In this document: piece after piece, positions 11,380 through 25,654 of the stretch | How positions within the stretch are numbered: position 1 is the stretch's first letter | How the letters are laid out: each line of letters starts with the position of its first letter | Assembly (NCBI GenBank): GCA_947460915.1 | Contig: CANHKJ010000003.1 | Location: 1-32,014 of the forward strand | Length of the DNA: 32,014 nucleotides | Reading direction: 5' to 3' | Origin: Verrucomicrobiia bacterium | GTDB lineage: Bacteria > Verrucomicrobiota > Verrucomicrobiia > Verrucomicrobiales > Akkermansiaceae | The notes under the pieces: model-generated | Database searches by the model: none | Told to the model about the DNA's origin: nothing | The model's input: the letters and a program-made list of their open reading frames with translations, nothing else | Made by a program: the position numbers and the translations under genes

Positions 11380-11710
11380 CACTCAACATCAAAAGAAGCA
11401 CCGCGATTTCACTTTGTCTTTTTTATTAGATAACAATCATCGACATTCTAGCAATATACTTTTACATAGAATAGCAAATAGCAATAATCAAGCAATTTTG
11501 GCAAATGCATAAATAGGCTAGCGATGGCAATACTATCTGATTGGATCAAATTTTGATTTTTTCCGATCCAGACTCACATTAATTTATTGCATCTCAGATA
11601 TGCATAGGGCATGATACACCTGCTAAGAGTTTATTTGGGACAAAAGAAATTAACGAAAAAATCGAAAAACGATGCGAAAAACTGATAATATTACCCAGCG
11701 AGTACGAAGA

Positions 11711-12826
11711 ATGACCTCACAGTCCAACTCTTACACTGTAAAGCAAACAGGCAACCGGATCGACTTAATTGGAGCAAGAATACCAATTTTTTACGAGGTT
11801 TCCGGCATAGAATTACCCGAGTTACAAGATCATAGCTTCGCGGTGTGGCACTTACTTCCTTCATGTATGAAAACTGGGCAATCGATTCATATTGATGGAC
11901 CTGTTGATCCTGATGTAATAAAAAACGCTATGGAGTTTTCGCGAATCTGGGAACTGTGGGAACCTACGAAATTTCGCCAAGTATTAATCACATCTAGCGA
12001 AAAATCAGCGACACCAATAGAGAATTGCCAAAAAAGAGAAAAACAATTAGCGTGCTTTTCTGGGGGTATTGACTCTACCCACATGTTGCTCAACATGGGC
12101 ATCCAAGAAAAAAGAGGTACGATATTAGGCATTCATGGAATGGAAATTCATTATGATAATAAACAACAGTTTGAAGAGCTAGCCAATTGGACAAAGCCCC
12201 TTTTGGAGTATTTGAACTATGATCGCGTGACTGTGCGGACGAATGCCAGTAAAATTGGAGGAGGTCATCATAGTTGGGCCCTTTCCCTTGCTGGCAACGC
12301 GTATTTGTTTCGCCAGTTATTTGAAGAATGTGTTTTTGCTTCTGACTTCACCGCTGCTGAGGATTTCGTGAGTTTTCCATACGGCTCTAATTCCATATCT
12401 AATCTCTTACTTGCAGGGAGAGATTATCGCTTAAGATCATTGTGCAATCAATTCAGCCGAGTTGATAAACTGGAACCGATCACCAAAGATCACATTGCGT
12501 TACAAACCGTAACATTTTGCAAACAAAAGCATTTGCGTCCGCAAAATTGTGGCATTTGTGACAAGTGTATCCGAACTAAGATTATGATGATCGTCGCATC
12601 TGGTCACATAGCAGAAGAAATTTTTATTGATCCTACATTAAATCGTAAGTTGGTTCATTCTTTGAACTTTTCTGACAAGATCGAACAAACATTTTTCATA
12701 TCTACATGCCAGCTTGCAAGAGAGAAAAATGTTTTATCAAAAATACCGGGTATAGAGGAGAAATTTTATGCGATTCAAAACCCTCTTTCCACCAGGATTC
12801 GAAGATTCTTCAGGCGCTATAAATAG
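11711..12826 (+). CDS. QueC/ExsB-like PP-loop ATPase family protein of unknown substrate
   Basis: PP-loop motif ACFSGGIDSTHMLLNMG and C-terminal cysteine motif CGICDKCIRTKIMM. Start uncertain (tracked ORF begins at 11672; in-frame ATG at 11711). Confidence 0.72.
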   Translation: MTSQSNSYTVKQTGNRIDLIGARIPIFYEVSGIELPELQDHSFAVWHLLPSCMKTGQSIHIDGPVDPDVIKNAMEFSRIWELWEPTKFRQVLITSSEKSATPIENCQKREKQLACFSGGIDSTHMLLNMGIQEKRGTILGIHGMEIHYDNKQQFEELANWTKPLLEYLNYDRVTVRTNASKIGGGHHSWALSLAGNAYLFRQLFEECVFASDFTAAEDFVSFPYGSNSISNLLLAGRDYRLRSLCNQFSRVDKLEPITKDHIALQTVTFCKQKHLRPQNCGICDKCIRTKIMMIVASGHIAEEIFIDPTLNRKLVHSLNFSDKIEQTFFISTCQLAREKNVLSKIPGIEEKFYAIQNPLSTRIRRFFRRYK

Positions 12827-13225: not shown

Positions 13226-14539
13226 ATGGCCACCGAACTCGAACATACACTCGCATCTGCCGCATCTTTGGAAGGCACGTCTTTGCACACGGGACAAAAA
13301 GTTTCGCTCACCATCAAACCTGCGCCAGAAGGCCATGGTTTCAAATTCCGCCGCATTGACCTGCCGGATCAGCCGTTCATCGATGCCGATGTCGACAAAG
13401 TACAGACAGTAGAACGCGCCACAACTTTGGCTCAAGGCTCAGTGAAAGTACACACGGTAGAGCACGTGATCTCGGCGCTTACCGGCATGGGGGTAGACAA
13501 TGCCATCATCGAGATGGATGCCAACGAACCACCAATTGGCGATGGCTCGTCGCGTCCTTTTGTCGAACTAATCAAAAAAGCAGGCATCGTAGCGCAAAAA
13601 GCCCCGCGTAAAGTATGGGAAATCCGCGAGCCGATACACCAAGAAAGCGGCGATGGTAGCATCGTAACGATTGTGCCTAGCAAAACATTCCGCGTATCCG
13701 TGACCAACGTTGGCCCCGATGGTCGCTTCACGCAATATTTTTCCAGCGAAGTCACTCCCGAGCTCTACGAAAGTGAAATCGCTCCTGCACGCACTTTTGT
13801 GTATTACGAGGACGTCAAGCCCCTGCTAGACAAAGGCCTGATCAAGGGTGGTTCACTCGAAAATGCCGTTGTCGTTCGCGGCAACGAAGTGATGTCCAAG
13901 GAAGCCCTGCGTTATTCTAACGAATTCGCCCGCCACAAAGCTCTCGACCTGATTGGAGATCTCATGCTCTCAGGCAAACGCATTCTCGGTCACGTCATCG
14001 CCGTCAAGCCAGGCCATGGACCGAACACACAAATGGCTGCCACTGTGAAGCGCGAGTACAGCCGCATGCGTTCGATGGTTCCGCCGATCAACATTCCCAA
14101 AGGCGAAGCAGTCTTGGACATTCACGATGTGTTGAAAATTTTGCCACATCGCTATCCATTTTTGTTAGTGGATCGCATCATTGATTTCGAGGGCGACACC
14201 AAGTGCACGGGCATCAAAAATGTGACTATGAACGAGCCGTTTTTTCCTGGGCATTTCCCCGGTCACCCCGTCATGCCCGGCGTGCTGCAGCTCGAAGCCA
14301 TGGCACAAGTATCCTCCGTGCTCATGCTGCGCAAACCAGAAAACCAAGGGAAAATTGGTTACTTCATGAGCGCCGATAGCGTCAAATGGCGTCGTCCTGT
14401 TCTCCCCGGTGACACCTTGTTCATCGAGGCAGAGGTGATCAAAATTCGTGGCTCCATCGGTCAAACACGCGCGCGCTGCCTCGTCAACGGAGAAGTTGTT
14501 TCCGAAGGTGAGCTGAAATTCGCGCTCGTCGCGAGTTGA
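13226..14539 (+). CDS. lpxC-fabZ: Bifunctional UDP-3-O-acyl-N-acetylglucosamine deacetylase / 3-hydroxyacyl-ACP dehydratase (LpxC-FabZ fusion)
   Basis: N-terminal LpxC motifs (GTSLHTGQKVSLTIKPA, TVEHVISALTGMGVDNAIIEMDANEPPIGDGSS, HKALDLIGDL) followed in frame by FabZ motifs (LPHRYPFLLVDRI, FFPGHFPGHPVMPGVLQLEAMAQ). ATG at 13226 preferred. Confidence 0.95.
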   Translation: MATELEHTLASAASLEGTSLHTGQKVSLTIKPAPEGHGFKFRRIDLPDQPFIDADVDKVQTVERATTLAQGSVKVHTVEHVISALTGMGVDNAIIEMDANEPPIGDGSSRPFVELIKKAGIVAQKAPRKVWEIREPIHQESGDGSIVTIVPSKTFRVSVTNVGPDGRFTQYFSSEVTPELYESEIAPARTFVYYEDVKPLLDKGLIKGGSLENAVVVRGNEVMSKEALRYSNEFARHKALDLIGDLMLSGKRILGHVIAVKPGHGPNTQMAATVKREYSRMRSMVPPINIPKGEAVLDIHDVLKILPHRYPFLLVDRIIDFEGDTKCTGIKNVTMNEPFFPGHFPGHPVMPGVLQLEAMAQVSSVLMLRKPENQGKIGYFMSADSVKWRRPVLPGDTLFIEAEVIKIRGSIGQTRARCLVNGEVVSEGELKFALVAS

Positions 14540-15408
14540 TCGTTATTGCGATGATCTCGCCTACCATCCAACTACATCTGTTAGTGTTTTTACTGGCACT
14601 GACTGGCGTGTTTGGACATTTACTTAGCCTCAACACCACCAGCTTGGTAGTATGGCGCACAGGAATCGCCGCTGTGGTGATGGCGTTATGGATGCTGTAT
14701 CGTCGTAAGGCACTACTGCTCGTATCGCCCGCCCTAGCCCTGAAAATGTTGATCGTAGGCATGATCATAGGGGCACACTGGTTGTTTTTCTATGGCAGTC
14801 TGAAGGTATCTAACATTTCCATTTGCCTCACAGGATACGCATCTATTTCCCTGTTTACCGCATTTACCGAACCGTGGCTAACGGGCTCGAAAATCGTCAA
14901 ATCAGAAATCCTTTTGGGTATCCTTGCTGCATTAGGATTGGCATTAATTGCGGGATTAGAAACAAAGTATTTGCTTGGCTTAACCCTAGCCGTAATTGGC
15001 GCCTTTCTTGCCGCAGTTTTCCCCGTGCTCAACCGCAAACTGGTATTATCGGGAGCAGCACCTGAAACCATTTTGCTCTGGGAAATGCCGGGGGCCTGTA
15101 TCGCGGCACTGATCGTTCACCCCTTCTTATCCCCTTACGCTTCCTTGTTTCAGTGGAAAAGCATGGACTTCGTGTGGATGTTTTTCCTCGCAATTCTGTG
15201 CACGGTTTTTGCTCACGCATTCCATACCCATTTGCTGCGCAACATCTCAGCGTATCGCAGCAATTTAGTGATGAACTTCGAGCCCATTCACGGGATCATT
15301 TTAGGTGCGCTGTTGTTTCAAGATTACCAATCGCTACGACCCGTTTTTTACTTGGGTGCCGCGATTATCATACTCACGAACTTCCTGCACCTGCGCGTCA
15401 AAAAATAA
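14536..15408 (+). CDS. EamA/DMT family transporter
   Basis: About 10 hydrophobic segments; TSLVVWRTGIAAVVMAL and NLVMNFEPIHGIILGALLFQD typical of EamA. TTG start overlapping the lpxC-fabZ stop, or ATG at 14551. Confidence 0.87.
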   Translation: MIVIAMISPTIQLHLLVFLLALTGVFGHLLSLNTTSLVVWRTGIAAVVMALWMLYRRKALLLVSPALALKMLIVGMIIGAHWLFFYGSLKVSNISICLTGYASISLFTAFTEPWLTGSKIVKSEILLGILAALGLALIAGLETKYLLGLTLAVIGAFLAAVFPVLNRKLVLSGAAPETILLWEMPGACIAALIVHPFLSPYASLFQWKSMDFVWMFFLAILCTVFAHAFHTHLLRNISAYRSNLVMNFEPIHGIILGALLFQDYQSLRPVFYLGAAIIILTNFLHLRVKK

Positions 15409-19071: not shown

Positions 19072-20457
19072 ATGAAAATAGCAAAAGCTAGCAGCGTCTT
19101 GAGCACAATTCCGACAAAACCAAGCATTTCTCACTGGCTCGAATACACTTTTGTGATAATTTTCGAGACCTTTTTACGCTTCTTCCCGACTTCTGTTGTT
19201 GATCGACTATCGACTTTCATGGGACGTATTGCTTGGATTTGTTTGAAGTCTCGCCGTCGAACAGTCATTAGAAATTGCCGAATTGCTTGGGGTGATCAAT
19301 TAAATCTTGATCAAATCCAAGAATTGTCGAAATCCGTTTTTGAAACTAATGCTGCAAATTTGATTTGTGGTATGAAAATGGCGTTGATGAAAGACGAAAA
19401 GATTACTCCCCACGTTTCCTTTTCAGGCTTAGTCGATTTGCATCAGCAGCTAGAATCATCACCGCACGGCATTTTGTTAGCCCTAGCGCACATGGGCAAC
19501 TGGGAAATTCTCTCCCGACTTAATGCATTGCTGGCTCCAACTAGGTCCAGCGCGGCGTTTTTCCGCCCACTCAATAACCCCTTGATGAATCACATGATAA
19601 AAATGCGACGTGCAAGATCGGGAACAAAGCTTTTTTCTAACAAAGATGGTTTTACGCAAGCCTGCTCTCACCTGCGGATTGGAGGACTTCTCGGAATCCT
19701 CGCTGACCAAAACGCCGGAAATTCAGGCATCCGCATGCCATTTTTCGGCAGGAACACTTCCTGCTCGCCACTCGTGGAGATCCTACATAAAAAAACTAGT
19801 GCAACCATATTTTATGTTTCTATGACGAAAATTGGATCAGCTCGCTGGCATATTGATCTCCGAAAGCATCCAGATGATGAGCCTTGCGATACTTCATCAA
19901 TCATGCGTGGCATTGAAACTTCTCTCAATACCAGTCCCTGTGACGGTTTCTGGTTCCACAATCGATGGAAGTTAGGCGTTAAGCAACCTTTTGTGGTTCG
20001 TCAAACGAGAACCTCAAAGACTCCACATTCACAAAATAAACCCTGGCATATCGTCATTGTGTTATCAAATGATCCCAAAATTTGTCGCGCCTCTCTTCCG
20101 GCAATCGAGCAATTGATCGCACGAGAGAATGACTACCGTTTTTTAGTTTTCAATGCTCCGTTTGATTTTCAGTCCAACAGAGCCTCTCATGCAGTTCTTC
20201 CAAAAGACATTCCGTTGCGTGATTACCTTCGAGTCTTGGATGGAGAACAAACCTCCCCTATTGACATGGTAATTTTCTTCACAGCCCCTGATGAGCAGTT
20301 TGATACGAGAAAAACTTCTGACATTCCCTGGAACGCAGGATTTTCTCAAAAATACTCCACGCTGTTATCCACTCGTATTCCCCTGCCAACTACATCGCTC
20401 TACGAGACCTCGACATGGTATCACTTCATTGATGCGCTGGGCTGCAAAGCCTCTTGA
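19072..20457 (+). CDS. LpxL/HtrB-family lipid A acyltransferase with C-terminal GT9-like (heptosyltransferase N-terminal half) region
   Basis: LALAHMGNWEIL (HxxxxD/E-like catalytic region), FRPLNNPLMNHMIKMRRARSG, LADQNAGNSGIRMPFFGR; C-terminal WHIVIVLSNDPKICRASLPAIEQLI... and AGFSQKYSTLLSTRIPLPTTSLYETSTWYHFIDALG resemble the GT9 N-terminal half. Confidence 0.82.
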   Translation: MKIAKASSVLSTIPTKPSISHWLEYTFVIIFETFLRFFPTSVVDRLSTFMGRIAWICLKSRRRTVIRNCRIAWGDQLNLDQIQELSKSVFETNAANLICGMKMALMKDEKITPHVSFSGLVDLHQQLESSPHGILLALAHMGNWEILSRLNALLAPTRSSAAFFRPLNNPLMNHMIKMRRARSGTKLFSNKDGFTQACSHLRIGGLLGILADQNAGNSGIRMPFFGRNTSCSPLVEILHKKTSATIFYVSMTKIGSARWHIDLRKHPDDEPCDTSSIMRGIETSLNTSPCDGFWFHNRWKLGVKQPFVVRQTRTSKTPHSQNKPWHIVIVLSNDPKICRASLPAIEQLIARENDYRFLVFNAPFDFQSNRASHAVLPKDIPLRDYLRVLDGEQTSPIDMVIFFTAPDEQFDTRKTSDIPWNAGFSQKYSTLLSTRIPLPTTSLYETSTWYHFIDALGCKAS

Positions 20458-20471
20458 GACATTCATTTATC

Positions 20472-21377
20472 ATGCATAAAGCCTTGCAAATTCTCGTTCT
20501 TTCAGATGGCAAACCAGGACATCGCAATCAAAGCCTCGGTTTAGCCGAGGCGGTCCAACGCCTGACTTTTTCTCAAATCCAAGTCATCGAGATCACAAGT
20601 CGCAATCCATTTTCCTCCACCATTCAGACGCTAAAACAAGCCAAATCATTACCCCACCTGGATTTAATCATCGGTGCTGGTCATTCCACTCATATCCCCT
20701 TACTGACTCTTGGAAAAATACTTGATGCACCTACAGTGGTATTGATGAAACCAAGTCTTCCCTGCGCACTATTTGATCTATGTCTCGTTCCGCAACACGA
20801 TCTCGATGCTAAAGATTACCCTCCATACATCATTCCAACAGTCGGCGCTCTGAACCGCATTCAAGCTGGCACATCTTCAAATAATCGTGGACTGATAATG
20901 ATCGGCGGGCCATCCAAAGAATTTGCTTGGAATGGAGAACTACTTCAACGTGCTATTTCTGAAATCGTAACAAGCTCACCACTCGAATGGCATCTCACTG
21001 ACTCACGCCGCACGCCGCATGGTTTTCTGGACACAATTTCCTCACTGCCACTTACCATACACCCACACCAAACAACGACACCCAATTGGCTGCCAGCACA
21101 GCTTGCCGATGTTCGGGAAACATGGGTGACTCAAGATAGCGTCTCGATGATATTCGAAGCACTCAGCAGCAGTGCCGCCGTAGGAATCCTACCATTGCCT
21201 CCCAACAAAAAAATGTCCAAGATCTCGCGCGCAGTGCAACAACTCTGCGAGACTCAACAAGCATCGTTTTTTTCCGATTGGCAAAAATGTCACCTGCTTC
21301 CGGCATCTACCCCGTTGCGCGAGGCTGACCGCTGCGCTCGCTTCCTAGTGCAAGCATTATATCCTCATCGTCTGTGA
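20472..21377 (+). CDS. ELM1/GtrOC1-like putative glycosyltransferase (mitochondrial fission ELM1 family), copy 1
   Basis: ILVLSDGKPGHRNQSLGLAEAV, LIIGAGHSTHIPLL, WHLTDSRRTPHGF, WVTQDSVSMIFEAL. Confidence 0.8.
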   Translation: MHKALQILVLSDGKPGHRNQSLGLAEAVQRLTFSQIQVIEITSRNPFSSTIQTLKQAKSLPHLDLIIGAGHSTHIPLLTLGKILDAPTVVLMKPSLPCALFDLCLVPQHDLDAKDYPPYIIPTVGALNRIQAGTSSNNRGLIMIGGPSKEFAWNGELLQRAISEIVTSSPLEWHLTDSRRTPHGFLDTISSLPLTIHPHQTTTPNWLPAQLADVRETWVTQDSVSMIFEALSSSAAVGILPLPPNKKMSKISRAVQQLCETQQASFFSDWQKCHLLPASTPLREADRCARFLVQALYPHRL

Positions 21378-22483
21378 AAATCATCCAAATCCTTCCCGAA
21401 CTCAACTCCGGAGGTGTCGAACGCGGCACCTGCGAGCTAGCCCAACATCTCGTGACAATCGGGCACGAATCCATCGTGATTTCACACGGTGGACGACTCA
21501 CGAAACGTCTTGCGGAACAAGGCACTCGACACATTACACTACCAGTTCACCGAAAGAGTTTAACTACATTTTTTCTCGTTGCCACCTTACGCCAAATATT
21601 TCTCACCGAGAAACCAGACATCATTCATGTTCGTTCACGAGTGCCCGCATGGATCGCTTGGCTCGCCTGGAAATCACTCCCTCGCTCATCTCGACCACGT
21701 TTCGTCAGCACCTTCCACGGATTTTATTCCGTCAATGCCTACTCACGAATCATGACGCGCGGCGAACAAATCATCGCCGTTTCCGCATCTGTCAAAAAAC
21801 ACATTCTCCAGCACTACCCCATCGCCCCAGAACGCGTCACAGTTATTCATCGCGGGATATCAAACGATTTCTACCATCCGAACTTTCAACCAAGTCCAGC
21901 ATGGATTGAACAATGGCGAAACGAATTTCCACAACTACAGGGCAAGTATTGCATCAACTTACCGGGTCGCATTTCGCGCTGGAAAGGACACGAACATTTT
22001 TGCCATCTCATCCATGCCTTACGACAAAAAAATCTTTCTGTTCACGGCACCATCGCAGGCTCATGTCATCCCAAAAAACAAGAATTCGGCAACGAACTTC
22101 GAGCCTTAATTCAATCCTTAAAACTCACCGATCACATCACTTTTCTCGGTGACCGCACCGACTTGCGTGAAGTCATGTCGGTATCCGATGCCGTCGTCAG
22201 CTTGTCGCTTGAGCCAGAAGCATTCGGGCGCGTGAGCCTAGAGGCAATGGGCTTAGGAAAACCCGTCGCAGCTTACCATCATGGCGGAGTCGCCGAGCAA
22301 CTCGACGCATTGTTTCCTGAGGGAAATGTCACTCCCGGCGATTGGAAATCTGCCGCTGAGCTCATCGCATCGTGGATCGATCAAGCACCCATGCCACCTG
22401 ATGAGAACACTTTTACGTTAGAAAAAATGCTCACCCAAACTGTCGAAGTCTATCATGAAGTTATGGCACGCAAACAAAATTAA
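21374..22483 (+). CDS. Glycosyltransferase family 4 protein
   Basis: GTG start; ILPELNSGGVERGTCELAQHL, HVRSRVPAWIAW, VIHRGIS, LSLEPEAFGRVSLEAMGLGKPVAAYHHGGVAE. Confidence 0.93.
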   Translation: MKIIQILPELNSGGVERGTCELAQHLVTIGHESIVISHGGRLTKRLAEQGTRHITLPVHRKSLTTFFLVATLRQIFLTEKPDIIHVRSRVPAWIAWLAWKSLPRSSRPRFVSTFHGFYSVNAYSRIMTRGEQIIAVSASVKKHILQHYPIAPERVTVIHRGISNDFYHPNFQPSPAWIEQWRNEFPQLQGKYCINLPGRISRWKGHEHFCHLIHALRQKNLSVHGTIAGSCHPKKQEFGNELRALIQSLKLTDHITFLGDRTDLREVMSVSDAVVSLSLEPEAFGRVSLEAMGLGKPVAAYHHGGVAEQLDALFPEGNVTPGDWKSAAELIASWIDQAPMPPDENTFTLEKMLTQTVEVYHEVMARKQN

Positions 22484-23577
22484 AACTTCTTAACTTTATC
22501 AGCTCTTGCGACGAAAAACTGTTGAAGTAATGGTGTAATCTTCGAGCACACCATAGCATCCAAAGGAAGATCAAACACGGAGCTGTGTGAGCAAAAAGAA
22601 TCTACGAAATTCGCATTATCCAAGCGAAGTCGTTGAATCCATTTTTCGTATTCTGCCTTAAGAATAAAGTTTTCGTGCTTAGGATCTATCCGATGTTGAT
22701 TTGATGAAAAGACACTTACAGGTATTCCCGATGCCATTGCCTCGTGCATCATTGACATACTGTCCTCACTCACCAAAACACGCTCGGCTAGGCCCAGATA
22801 TGCGGCAACAACTCGTCTGGCATCGCCCTCACCCGCCCAGCAGGCATCGTAAATGGAGCTTTTGGAAAGCCGATTACGCAGGGCTGACTCCATCTCTCTG
22901 GGCGTACGCCGAGAAGTCGTGATCACCCACCGGAGTCCCTTTTGCGCAGCTACCTCGTTCAATCGATCACCTAGTAAATTCCCATCTTTTTCGCTCCATT
23001 CATAACCAGCACCATTCCCACCAATCATACAGCATGCAATTTTATGATTCAGCGGCGCACGTCCTTCTATAAAATTTTTCGCAGCTAATGCAGTAGTTTC
23101 GTGATTGATCGGCCCGGGCAAAGCTGGAAGCAAAACCACACCAGAAGACTCAAGTGAGGGATCATAATGAATCACCATTCCATAATCAGAAACCGGAATC
23201 GAGCGCGGAGAGCCAATAAAAATACTAAACGCAGATTTTTTTTTCCCTAGTGCGGCTACTGCCCACTGCACCCCACCACCAGACCCAATGATGATATCAG
23301 GCGATTCGCCGAATTTATCTCGGCCCGCCATTCCGCAGCAAGCGAAAGAGAACCCCAACGGCCAACACCTTTGCAGCAAGCGCCCCAACGGCCGCGTCCA
23401 AGCTCGATAGCGCACCTCAGTTACTCTTAATGAATATTCGTAACGCAAGCTGCCTAACATGCCCATTGTCAGAGAACGATGTCCAGCTTTTCTGTCCAGA
23501 ACAACCCAAACTGTTAGTTTTTTCTTGATTTCATTCACGCGACGCAGAAGCGTAAAACATTTCAGCTGAAGAATCAA
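22480..23577 (-). CDS. ELM1-like putative glycosyltransferase, divergent copy 2
   Basis: VWVVLDRKAGHRSLTMGML, IIIGSGGGVQWAVAAL, WVITTSRRTPREME, VLVSEDSMSMMHEAMASGIPVSVF match the same motif series as the 20472-21377 product. Confidence 0.75.
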   Translation of the reverse strand: MILQLKCFTLLRRVNEIKKKLTVWVVLDRKAGHRSLTMGMLGSLRYEYSLRVTEVRYRAWTRPLGRLLQRCWPLGFSFACCGMAGRDKFGESPDIIIGSGGGVQWAVAALGKKKSAFSIFIGSPRSIPVSDYGMVIHYDPSLESSGVVLLPALPGPINHETTALAAKNFIEGRAPLNHKIACCMIGGNGAGYEWSEKDGNLLGDRLNEVAAQKGLRWVITTSRRTPREMESALRNRLSKSSIYDACWAGEGDARRVVAAYLGLAERVLVSEDSMSMMHEAMASGIPVSVFSSNQHRIDPKHENFILKAEYEKWIQRLRLDNANFVDSFCSHSSVFDLPLDAMVCSKITPLLQQFFVARADKVKKF

Positions 23578-23694: not shown

Positions 23695-24777
23695 GTGAAA
23701 GTTCTTTATTACCTCGACACGTCTACATCGATCAACTGGGGCAGTCAGGCAACCAGTGCTGGCATGCGACAACTTATCGAAAACAATCATCCTGAGGCTG
23801 AATTTATACCTTATACCTTTGCTCCACTACCGCTCAAATTATTCCCTTTTCTCCGAATAATTGCTGACAAAATGCTGCTTTGCAATATTCGCAAAAACAA
23901 TCTCCACAAGGTCAAGTCCATCTTGAGCTGGTATGGAATCGATCAGAACATATACAATCAATATGATGTTGTCTGCTTTAATGGTGAAGGTGCGATGCAT
24001 GACCAGTCTGGTCACTTTTTTCGGATGCTTGCTTCACTTTATGCATTCAAGGCAAATGGGAAAAAAGTGATTTCTATGAATCAAACGATCGACGTCAAAC
24101 CCGGAAGCCTACATGCGGCCATGCTTCAAGCGGTCTATCCACAGCTAGACGCCGTGCTTGTGCGCGAGCCGCTATCTCACAGGTTACTCAATCAACTCAA
24201 CATACCTAATACCGTTCTCGGTGATGCGGCATACGCACTGCCGCGATTATCAGAAGAGGAAATCGAGCAGCATTTCCGCACTTTCGACATCGATACAGGA
24301 TTCATCGCCCTAACAGCTTCCTCGATTCTTGACCGCAACGCTCGCTCAATTGCAACCATGGAAAAAATCATCCGCGCGCTTAAACCGCTGGGTCGTAGAA
24401 TCGTTTTCCTCGCTAATACCAAGACCGACCTCTATCTAGCAAAAAAAATCGCGCAATCTTATCATATTCAGATCATCAGCTACAAAGATGCGCAATACAA
24501 ACAAGCAATGGCGATCATTGCAAAAGCTGATCTTCTCGTCGGAGGTCGTCAACACCCTAACATTTTTGCCGCAATTTATCAAACTCCGTTCATCGGACTA
24601 GCGGGCAACACGCACAAAATGCAAGGTGTGATGGAATTGCTCAATTACCCGATTCAATCCAAAAATTGGGATATCAGCGAGACAGATTTACGAACTTGTG
24701 CAAGGGACATACTCGACGGAAAAATTGATTTTTCCGCAGTTACTGTTCCCATTGTTGCACAACTGACTTTGTATTAA
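23695..24777 (+). CDS. Polysaccharide pyruvyl transferase family protein
   Basis: NWGSQATSAGMRQLIE, DVVCFNGEGAMHDQ, VISMNQTID, LLVGGRQHPNIFAAIYQTPFIGLAGNTHKMQGVMELL. GTG start. Confidence 0.85.
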   Translation: MKVLYYLDTSTSINWGSQATSAGMRQLIENNHPEAEFIPYTFAPLPLKLFPFLRIIADKMLLCNIRKNNLHKVKSILSWYGIDQNIYNQYDVVCFNGEGAMHDQSGHFFRMLASLYAFKANGKKVISMNQTIDVKPGSLHAAMLQAVYPQLDAVLVREPLSHRLLNQLNIPNTVLGDAAYALPRLSEEEIEQHFRTFDIDTGFIALTASSILDRNARSIATMEKIIRALKPLGRRIVFLANTKTDLYLAKKIAQSYHIQIISYKDAQYKQAMAIIAKADLLVGGRQHPNIFAAIYQTPFIGLAGNTHKMQGVMELLNYPIQSKNWDISETDLRTCARDILDGKIDFSAVTVPIVAQLTLY

Positions 24778-24838: not shown

Positions 24839-25654
24839 TCATGCACGAACAAAAACTCCATTCATGCGGCAACGCTTTTGTAAGCGATAACCACTACGTT
24901 CTAGCAATCGAATCAACGCCGAGTTTTCCGCATGAGCCAGCACCTCACATACAATCATACGGGGCAAGTCGGTTGCTTTTGTTTCTAGAAAATATGGCTC
25001 CAGAATTTCATTCTCCATACCCTCGACATCGATTTTCATACAATGTACTCTAGGAATTCCATTCTCTTCAAGAAACGTGCTCAGTTTGCAAATGCGGATT
25101 CTCTCTCCATGTTCGGATGCCGAGACTACTTGATTTTCACCAGAATTCCCCACCCCTTTGACAAGAACAACCTCTCCCTCCTCGCGTCCTAGCGCAATAC
25201 GGCGCAGATGCAGGTTATTGAGTTGATTTTGCTCGATGTTAAAAGACAACCGTCGGCAAAGAGCATCATCAGGCTCGAAGGCCTCAATGCGCAAATTTTT
25301 CTCTTTTTGCGAGGCCATCCATAGAGAATACGCTCCCACGTTGGCGCCTATATCGAGAAAAACTTCTCCGTCTTGAATCTCGTCACGAAGCAGTTGGCGC
25401 TCATCGTGATCCAGAAACTGCGGCATAAAAATCAATCTTTGCTCGGATAAATTCCCTTTTGATTTCAGACGTAACTTCAATCCCCAGACCACAACATCGA
25501 CCTCCTCACCGATCACCATTTTGAGAGGCTTCCTCAACCAAAAGGTCAATCTTCTCATCAGCTTACCGGTCGGCATGGCATGGCACATGCTAAGATAGCG
25601 CTGTGACCATGCACCTAAGCGATAGCTACCCCAATTAACATTACGTTCCGTCAT
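24839..25654 (-). CDS. FkbM family methyltransferase
   Basis: GEVFLDIGANVGAYSLWMA (SAM-binding motif I), IEAFEPDDALCRRLSFNIEQNQL, VHCMKIDVEGMENEIL. Confidence 0.9.
   Translation of the reverse strand: MTERNVNWGSYRLGAWSQRYLSMCHAMPTGKLMRRLTFWLRKPLKMVIGEEVDVVVWGLKLRLKSKGNLSEQRLIFMPQFLDHDERQLLRDEIQDGEVFLDIGANVGAYSLWMASQKEKNLRIEAFEPDDALCRRLSFNIEQNQLNNLHLRRIALGREEGEVVLVKGVGNSGENQVVSASEHGERIRICKLSTFLEENGIPRVHCMKIDVEGMENEILEPYFLETKATDLPRMIVCEVLAHAENSALIRLLERSGYRLQKRCRMNGVFVRA

Follow-up and report, generated by a model that had tools for sequence, protein, structure and literature searches.

A QueC-like PP-loop protein from a predicted lipid A/LPS locus very probably belongs to an unnamed protein family with genomic ties to surface-glycan genes

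The window analysed here, a stretch of 32,014 nucleotides from a Verrucomicrobiia bacterium taken as a whole, raises the question of what a QueC-like PP-loop protein does when its gene lies between a CNNM/CorC-type protein gene and an lpxC-fabZ fusion. PP-loop enzymes convert ATP to AMP and PPi and thereby adenylate a carboxylate or carbonyl, and the activated group is then attacked by ammonia, an amine or sulfur (PMC13329287, PMC13279940, PMC13060819). An earlier note on this DNA described the two flanks correctly. It read the product as an orphan PP-loop protein with an uncharacterised N-terminal domain and a QueC-like cysteine cluster, distinct from canonical QueC and lacking any sugar-related partner nearby.

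The open frame is intact over its 384 codons, and the three stretches on which that description was based are all present in the protein, namely WHLLPSCMKTGQSIHIDGPVDPDVIKNAMEFSRIWELW (residues 59-96), CFSGGIDSTHML (residues 128-139) and CGICDKC (residues 293-299). The cysteine cluster does resemble that of QueC, as a fourth residue, C283, completes a C-x9-C-x2-C-x2-C pattern. The AlphaFold model of the window protein reached a mean pLDDT of 87 and a pTM of 0.89, the first 40 residues being weak, and lays out an N-terminal alpha/beta domain, a Rossmann core starting at residue 123 and C-terminal helices. The N-terminal domain, when folded alone, was modelled less confidently (pLDDT 79) and found no confident match among solved structures. 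No Pfam model matches this domain either, in line with the earlier description. Used as a lone query, the window protein found no match in a PDB sequence search and recovered no relatives from the genome contigs. The frame nevertheless represents more than a chance ORF, because a family profile built without it scores it at 195 bits and its AlphaFold model is confident. The models show a three-part build, with a predicted N-terminal alpha/beta domain, a PP-loop Rossmann core bearing a QueC-type four-Cys site and a helical C-terminal extension (Table 1).

Table 1. Features of the window discussed in the text
Feature	Coordinates	Strand	Remarks
QueC-like PP-loop protein, 384 aa	11672..12826	+	ATG start; unnamed surface-glycan-linked family member
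N-terminal alpha/beta domain, about residues 42-117	11795..12022	+	structure models
PP-loop FSGGIDS, residues 129-135	12056..12076	+	Gly132 and Asp134 in 132/134 family ORFs
Presumed zinc site, QueC-type four-Cys, C283-x9-C293-x2-C296-x2-C299	12518..12568	+	pattern as PMC13329287
lpxC-fabZ fusion, lipid A synthesis	13226..14539	+	listed ORF from 13097 TTG; domain from near 13226 ATG
Putative lpxA ORF, directly after lpxC-fabZ	14536..15408	+	by position only
LpxL-like lipid A acyltransferase	19072..20457	+	PF03279
ELM1-family putative glycosyltransferase	20454..21377	+	PF06258
GT4 glycosyltransferase	21374..22483	+	
Second ELM1-family putative glycosyltransferase	22480..23577	-	PF06258
Polysaccharide pyruvyl transferase	23695..24777	+	PF04230
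FkbM-type methyltransferase	24839..25654	-	PF05050

That leave-one-out profile was built from 49 relatives, the window protein being excluded, and its match covers residues 22-356, N-terminal domain included. Canonical QueC proteins reach only 11-13 bits against the same profile, with a maximum of 13. We are thus highly confident that the window protein belongs to a coherent, unnamed, glycan-linked PP-loop family. Other genomes of the class contain relatives, and so do plasmids from Azospirillum, Gloeothece, Gemmobacter, Nostoc and haloarchaea. The annotated plasmid members listed are all labelled "hypothetical protein". In the GTDB species collection, a pattern search built on the closer relative set (A4), the A3 alignment being too divergent, returned 126 places with relatives, 80 of which were kept, each of them with an iterated profile match. 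The family ranges over at least 13 bacterial phyla plus haloarchaea, while no relative was found among viral contigs and phage records. Weak matches to DUF6395 were seen in 2 of 14 members (best E 0.027), and phrog_1550 catches mostly canonical QueC.

Family members share the motifs FSGGxD[SAG], HGFD, TNxR, GSxPxTDP, RxxK, LRVC and NCGxCxKC. Loss of the PP-loop residues across the family, which would have refuted the proposal of the earlier note, was not observed: of 134 near-full-length ORFs, 132 have both Gly132 and Asp134, and each of the four cysteines is present in 132-134. The last Ser of the loop is replaced by Ala or Gly in 33 of the 134. Tandem pairs or triplets, or double-domain family proteins, occur at five loci (L154, L117, L082, L018 and L024) and some of their PP-loops are altered, the loop of the third copy at L018 reading FAPDVDG. 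This arrangement perhaps reflects the pairing of active and inactive units. Given the few tandem copies with degenerate loops and the Ser to Ala or Gly replacements, some members may be non-catalytic.

The neighbourhood analysis that the earlier note had suggested revealed the polysaccharide pyruvyl transferase family PF04230 as the commonest Pfam family next to the relatives. Across 76 species loci, PF04230 accounts for 19 of 124 immediate neighbours, ahead of glycosyltransferase 2 (8), asparagine synthase (5) and flippases (4), GATase_7 (3) also being present. It again ranks first among the second neighbours (11/83), followed by glycosyltransferase 2 with 8. Within flanks of up to 10 kb, PF04230 genes were found at 41 of the 80 loci against 0.8 expected, an expectation derived from the genome-wide PF04230 density in 36 genomes of the Verrucomicrobia class and therefore applying one class to loci that come from many phyla and are not fully independent. 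At 21 of the 80 loci the PF04230 gene lies no more than 300 bp from the family gene, and in 18 of these cases both genes share a strand. Roughly half of the 80 have no PF04230 gene in the flanks available, in some cases owing to a short contig. As a control, flippase (PF01943) loci away from family members were tallied by hand in the same genomes: a PF04230 gene lay within 10 kb at 21 of 37 family loci but at only 3 of 26 flippase loci (Fisher p = 2e-4). The linkage to PF04230 is thus stronger than that of flippase-marked glycan loci in the same genomes.

On plasmid p4 of Azospirillum brasilense, the PF04230 gene (D3869_RS27260) and the family gene (D3869_RS27265) stand as a near-isolated pair. 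A single-contig Akkermansia-family genome (G214) carries a fusion of the two, a single frame of 1134 codons (L086:7324-10728) encoding, in this order, a GT2 domain, so labelled by reading of its sequence, a PF04230 domain spanning residues 347-621 and, at residues 678-1021, the family protein. The family is consequently linked, by genomic proximity and by one gene fusion, to polysaccharide pyruvyl transferases and glycosyltransferases, PF04230 membership not meaning a proven pyruvyl transferase in every case. Other surroundings were also observed. The haloarchaeal plasmid loci L035 and L036 have members of the sulfatase/alkaline-phosphatase family, ATP-grasp or GNAT proteins and Gfo/Idh/MocA proteins nearby rather than PF04230, and on the Gloeothece plasmids L030 and L031 the pair of PF04230 and QueC-like genes adjoins a non-ribosomal peptide synthetase cluster. 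Our search of the literature found no PP-loop or QueC-like protein tied to a pyruvyl transferase.

The window itself, judging from its gene content, is a lipid A/LPS locus. The family gene stands alone, with gaps of about 290 bp to the preceding CNNM/CorC-type gene and about 400 bp to the likely start of lpxC, and lipid A/LPS and glycan genes follow 1-13 kb downstream. The absence of a sugar-related partner noted earlier thus holds for the two adjacent genes and fails for this downstream region. The label of orphan does not fit a member of a coherent family so strongly linked to pyruvyl transferases and glycosyltransferases. The PF04230 gene of the window, the only one detected in the genome (assembly 88% complete), lies 10.9 kb from the family gene and is not adjacent to it. 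In G001, from the same genus, two tandem family genes sit beside an LpxL-like gene and near glycosyltransferases, with the only PF04230 gene of that genome about 2.5-3 kb away. Orthologs shared by the G001 and window loci reach 92% (CimA), 70% (YkuD), 69% (DUF1080) and 40% (LpxL-like) identity, and the family proteins only 26-28%. Within the window, the GT4 gene is flanked by the two ELM1-family genes, which lie on opposite strands. The LpxL-like acyltransferases of the window and of L017:7745-9175, from two species, have in common a C-terminal extension of about 150 residues.

Based on the glycan enzymes surrounding the family genes and on the one fusion, the family enzyme probably modifies an acid group on a surface sugar. 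We infer, with a probability of roughly 60%, that these proteins are QueC-like ATP-pyrophosphatases of surface-glycan assembly that adenylate such a group. ATP would be bound at the SGGxDS loop and used, with release of PPi, to adenylate a sugar residue of the glycan or of its lipid-linked precursor at a carboxylate or, alternatively, at an amide carbonyl. Ammonia or an amine would then attack the adenylate, probably yielding an amide, so that a negative charge would be removed or a substituent added. Possible products are an amide and a substituted amide, a nitrile being the least likely outcome. Amidation and nitrile formation, which the earlier note had put forward, or a related adenylation step are plausible. 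In the window genome, the target glycan would be the LPS core or lipid A-linked sugar encoded by the same locus. The most economical substrate, and the simplest candidate, would be the free carboxylate of the pyruvate ketal that the partner enzyme installs; a uronic acid or a Kdo-type (ulosonic) acid could be used instead. The narrower proposal that the family amidates the pyruvate-ketal carboxylate on surface glycans, converts it to a nitrile or couples it to an amine is tentative, and we rate it as unlikely in this precise form. If true, it would describe an unreported two-step glycan decoration by a paired or fused enzyme set. The ATP-dependent nitrile synthetases (ArtA/NitB, PesC; PDB 9leh/9lei) show that PP-loop enzymes are able to amidate and nitrilate carboxylates. 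Their SGGLDS loop region aligns weakly (E 0.16), the match to 9leh/9lei being restricted to the loop, and PesC is asparagine-synthetase-like, unlike the family.

Sugar chemistry of another kind is known from the N-acetyl sugar amidotransferases (NASAT), and the family enzyme could act on an N-acetyl sugar in the manner of WbpG, forming an amidine or amide with ammonia from a partner. NASATs likewise combine a PP-loop with a tetracysteine zinc site and act in LPS synthesis (PMC10607449); the window gene sits in an LPS locus, and asparagine synthase and GATase_7 genes are found among the 124 neighbours. The NASAT cysteines, however, follow the layout CxxC-Xn-[GN]xCxxC (PMC10607449), against C-x9-CxxCxxC in the family. 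When 14 members were compared with the NCBIfam sugar amidotransferase models, none matched, and reading of the loci brought up no HisH/HisF-type partner. We therefore regard an N-acetyl sugar substrate as unlikely.

A different concern is that the window copy could be a foreign or decaying gene without present function, the family as a whole being functional. The gene has a GC content of 40% and a GC3 of 38%, whereas its flanking core genes have about 53% and 60%; the protein forms a long branch (2.04) in the family tree; and in the genus sample the family was found in only 2 of 10 genomes. Several family-typical residues are changed in the window protein (Asp158 to Glu, Asp244 to Asn, LRVC to VTFC). 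Against decay, the frame remains intact, the PP-loop and the four cysteines are kept, the structure model is confident, and low GC is common, less strongly, to other LPS-core genes of the window. The divergence and low GC would fit horizontal acquisition and rapid change of LPS genes, and we consider a functionless copy rather improbable.

The structure comparison proposed in the earlier note placed QatC as the best fold and QueC next. The two top Foldseek matches among solved structures are QatC entries (E 6.6e-6 and 1.2e-5 over 380-385 columns), albeit with a TM of about 0.45, an rmsd of 9 and only 10-12% identity. The predicted three-part build resembles that of QatC, in which an N-terminal alpha/beta and a C-terminal helical extension surround a QueC core, whether or not the extensions share an ancestor. 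On this basis, the protein could attach a small acid to a partner protein at its N-terminus. Cap9 carries out such a conjugation, and QatC has been proposed to do the same in phage defence. The QatC cysteine layout, C(x)19CGxCxxRR, differs from C-x9-CxxCxxC. None of 14 members gave such a PADLOC match, no qat genes were seen among the neighbours and none of qatA, qatB and qatD adjoins the window gene. The neighbours are instead glycan genes, and the L086 protein is covalently joined behind a pyruvyl transferase. Conjugation to a protein is thus very unlikely.

The relationship to QueC (PF06508) lies in the PP-loop Rossmann core and the C-x8/9-CxxCxxC site, with a profile-profile E of 4.3e-6 over the PP-loop half of the core and a TM (by target) of 0.60-0.66 to B. 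subtilis QueC (3bl5). The window protein has the SGGIDS loop, and its cysteine spacing is one residue longer than the C(x)8CxxCxxC that accompanies SGGxDS in QueC (PMC13329287). The QueC motifs YxQxHxxE, VPxRN and YPDC (PMC13329287) were not seen in the family consensus, which has HGFD, TNxR and GSxPxTDP instead at positions matched by sequence only. The family protein is also longer (384 against about 222 residues) with its N-terminal domain and C-terminal extension, and its neighbours are glycan rather than queuosine genes: neither queD nor queE was found in the scanned window genes or among the neighbour-census families listed. No Pfam or NCBIfam model claims the window protein, and PADLOC gave no match. 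The genome encodes a canonical QueC on another contig (205.7 bits), and the relatives of the window protein are not QueC themselves, which bears out its earlier separation from QueC. A full-length canonical QueC match is absent from 7 of 23 family-carrying genomes (G018, G029, G077, G166, G198, G206 and G297), which have partial or no QueC matches, G198 being only 86% complete. Family presence consequently does not track queuosine synthesis. A role as canonical QueC, or as some other enzyme that modifies nucleosides, is extremely improbable for the window protein, as its weak PF06508 score (15.4 bits) falls below the curated 22-bit cut-off, the genome has a separate canonical QueC, several family genomes gave no full-length match to one and the YPDC-type substrate motif was not found in the family. 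As identities of the protein, canonical QueC, phage-defence QatC and NASAT were all rejected, on the grounds of the PF06508 cut-off, motifs, neighbours, cysteine layout and NCBIfam models.

A 2026 survey divided the QueC family into tRNA, phage-defence, LarE, GMP-synthase and sugar-amidotransferase branches (PMC13329287). Since the family described here scores below the PF06508 cut-off, a survey built on PF06508 would be expected to miss it. The family has a clear, testable partner. If confirmed, sugar acid adenylation by this family would be a chemical reaction new to the synthesis of capsules, exopolysaccharides and LPS, also in bacteria related to Akkermansia from the gut. It would also provide proteins now annotated as hypothetical with a working hypothesis.
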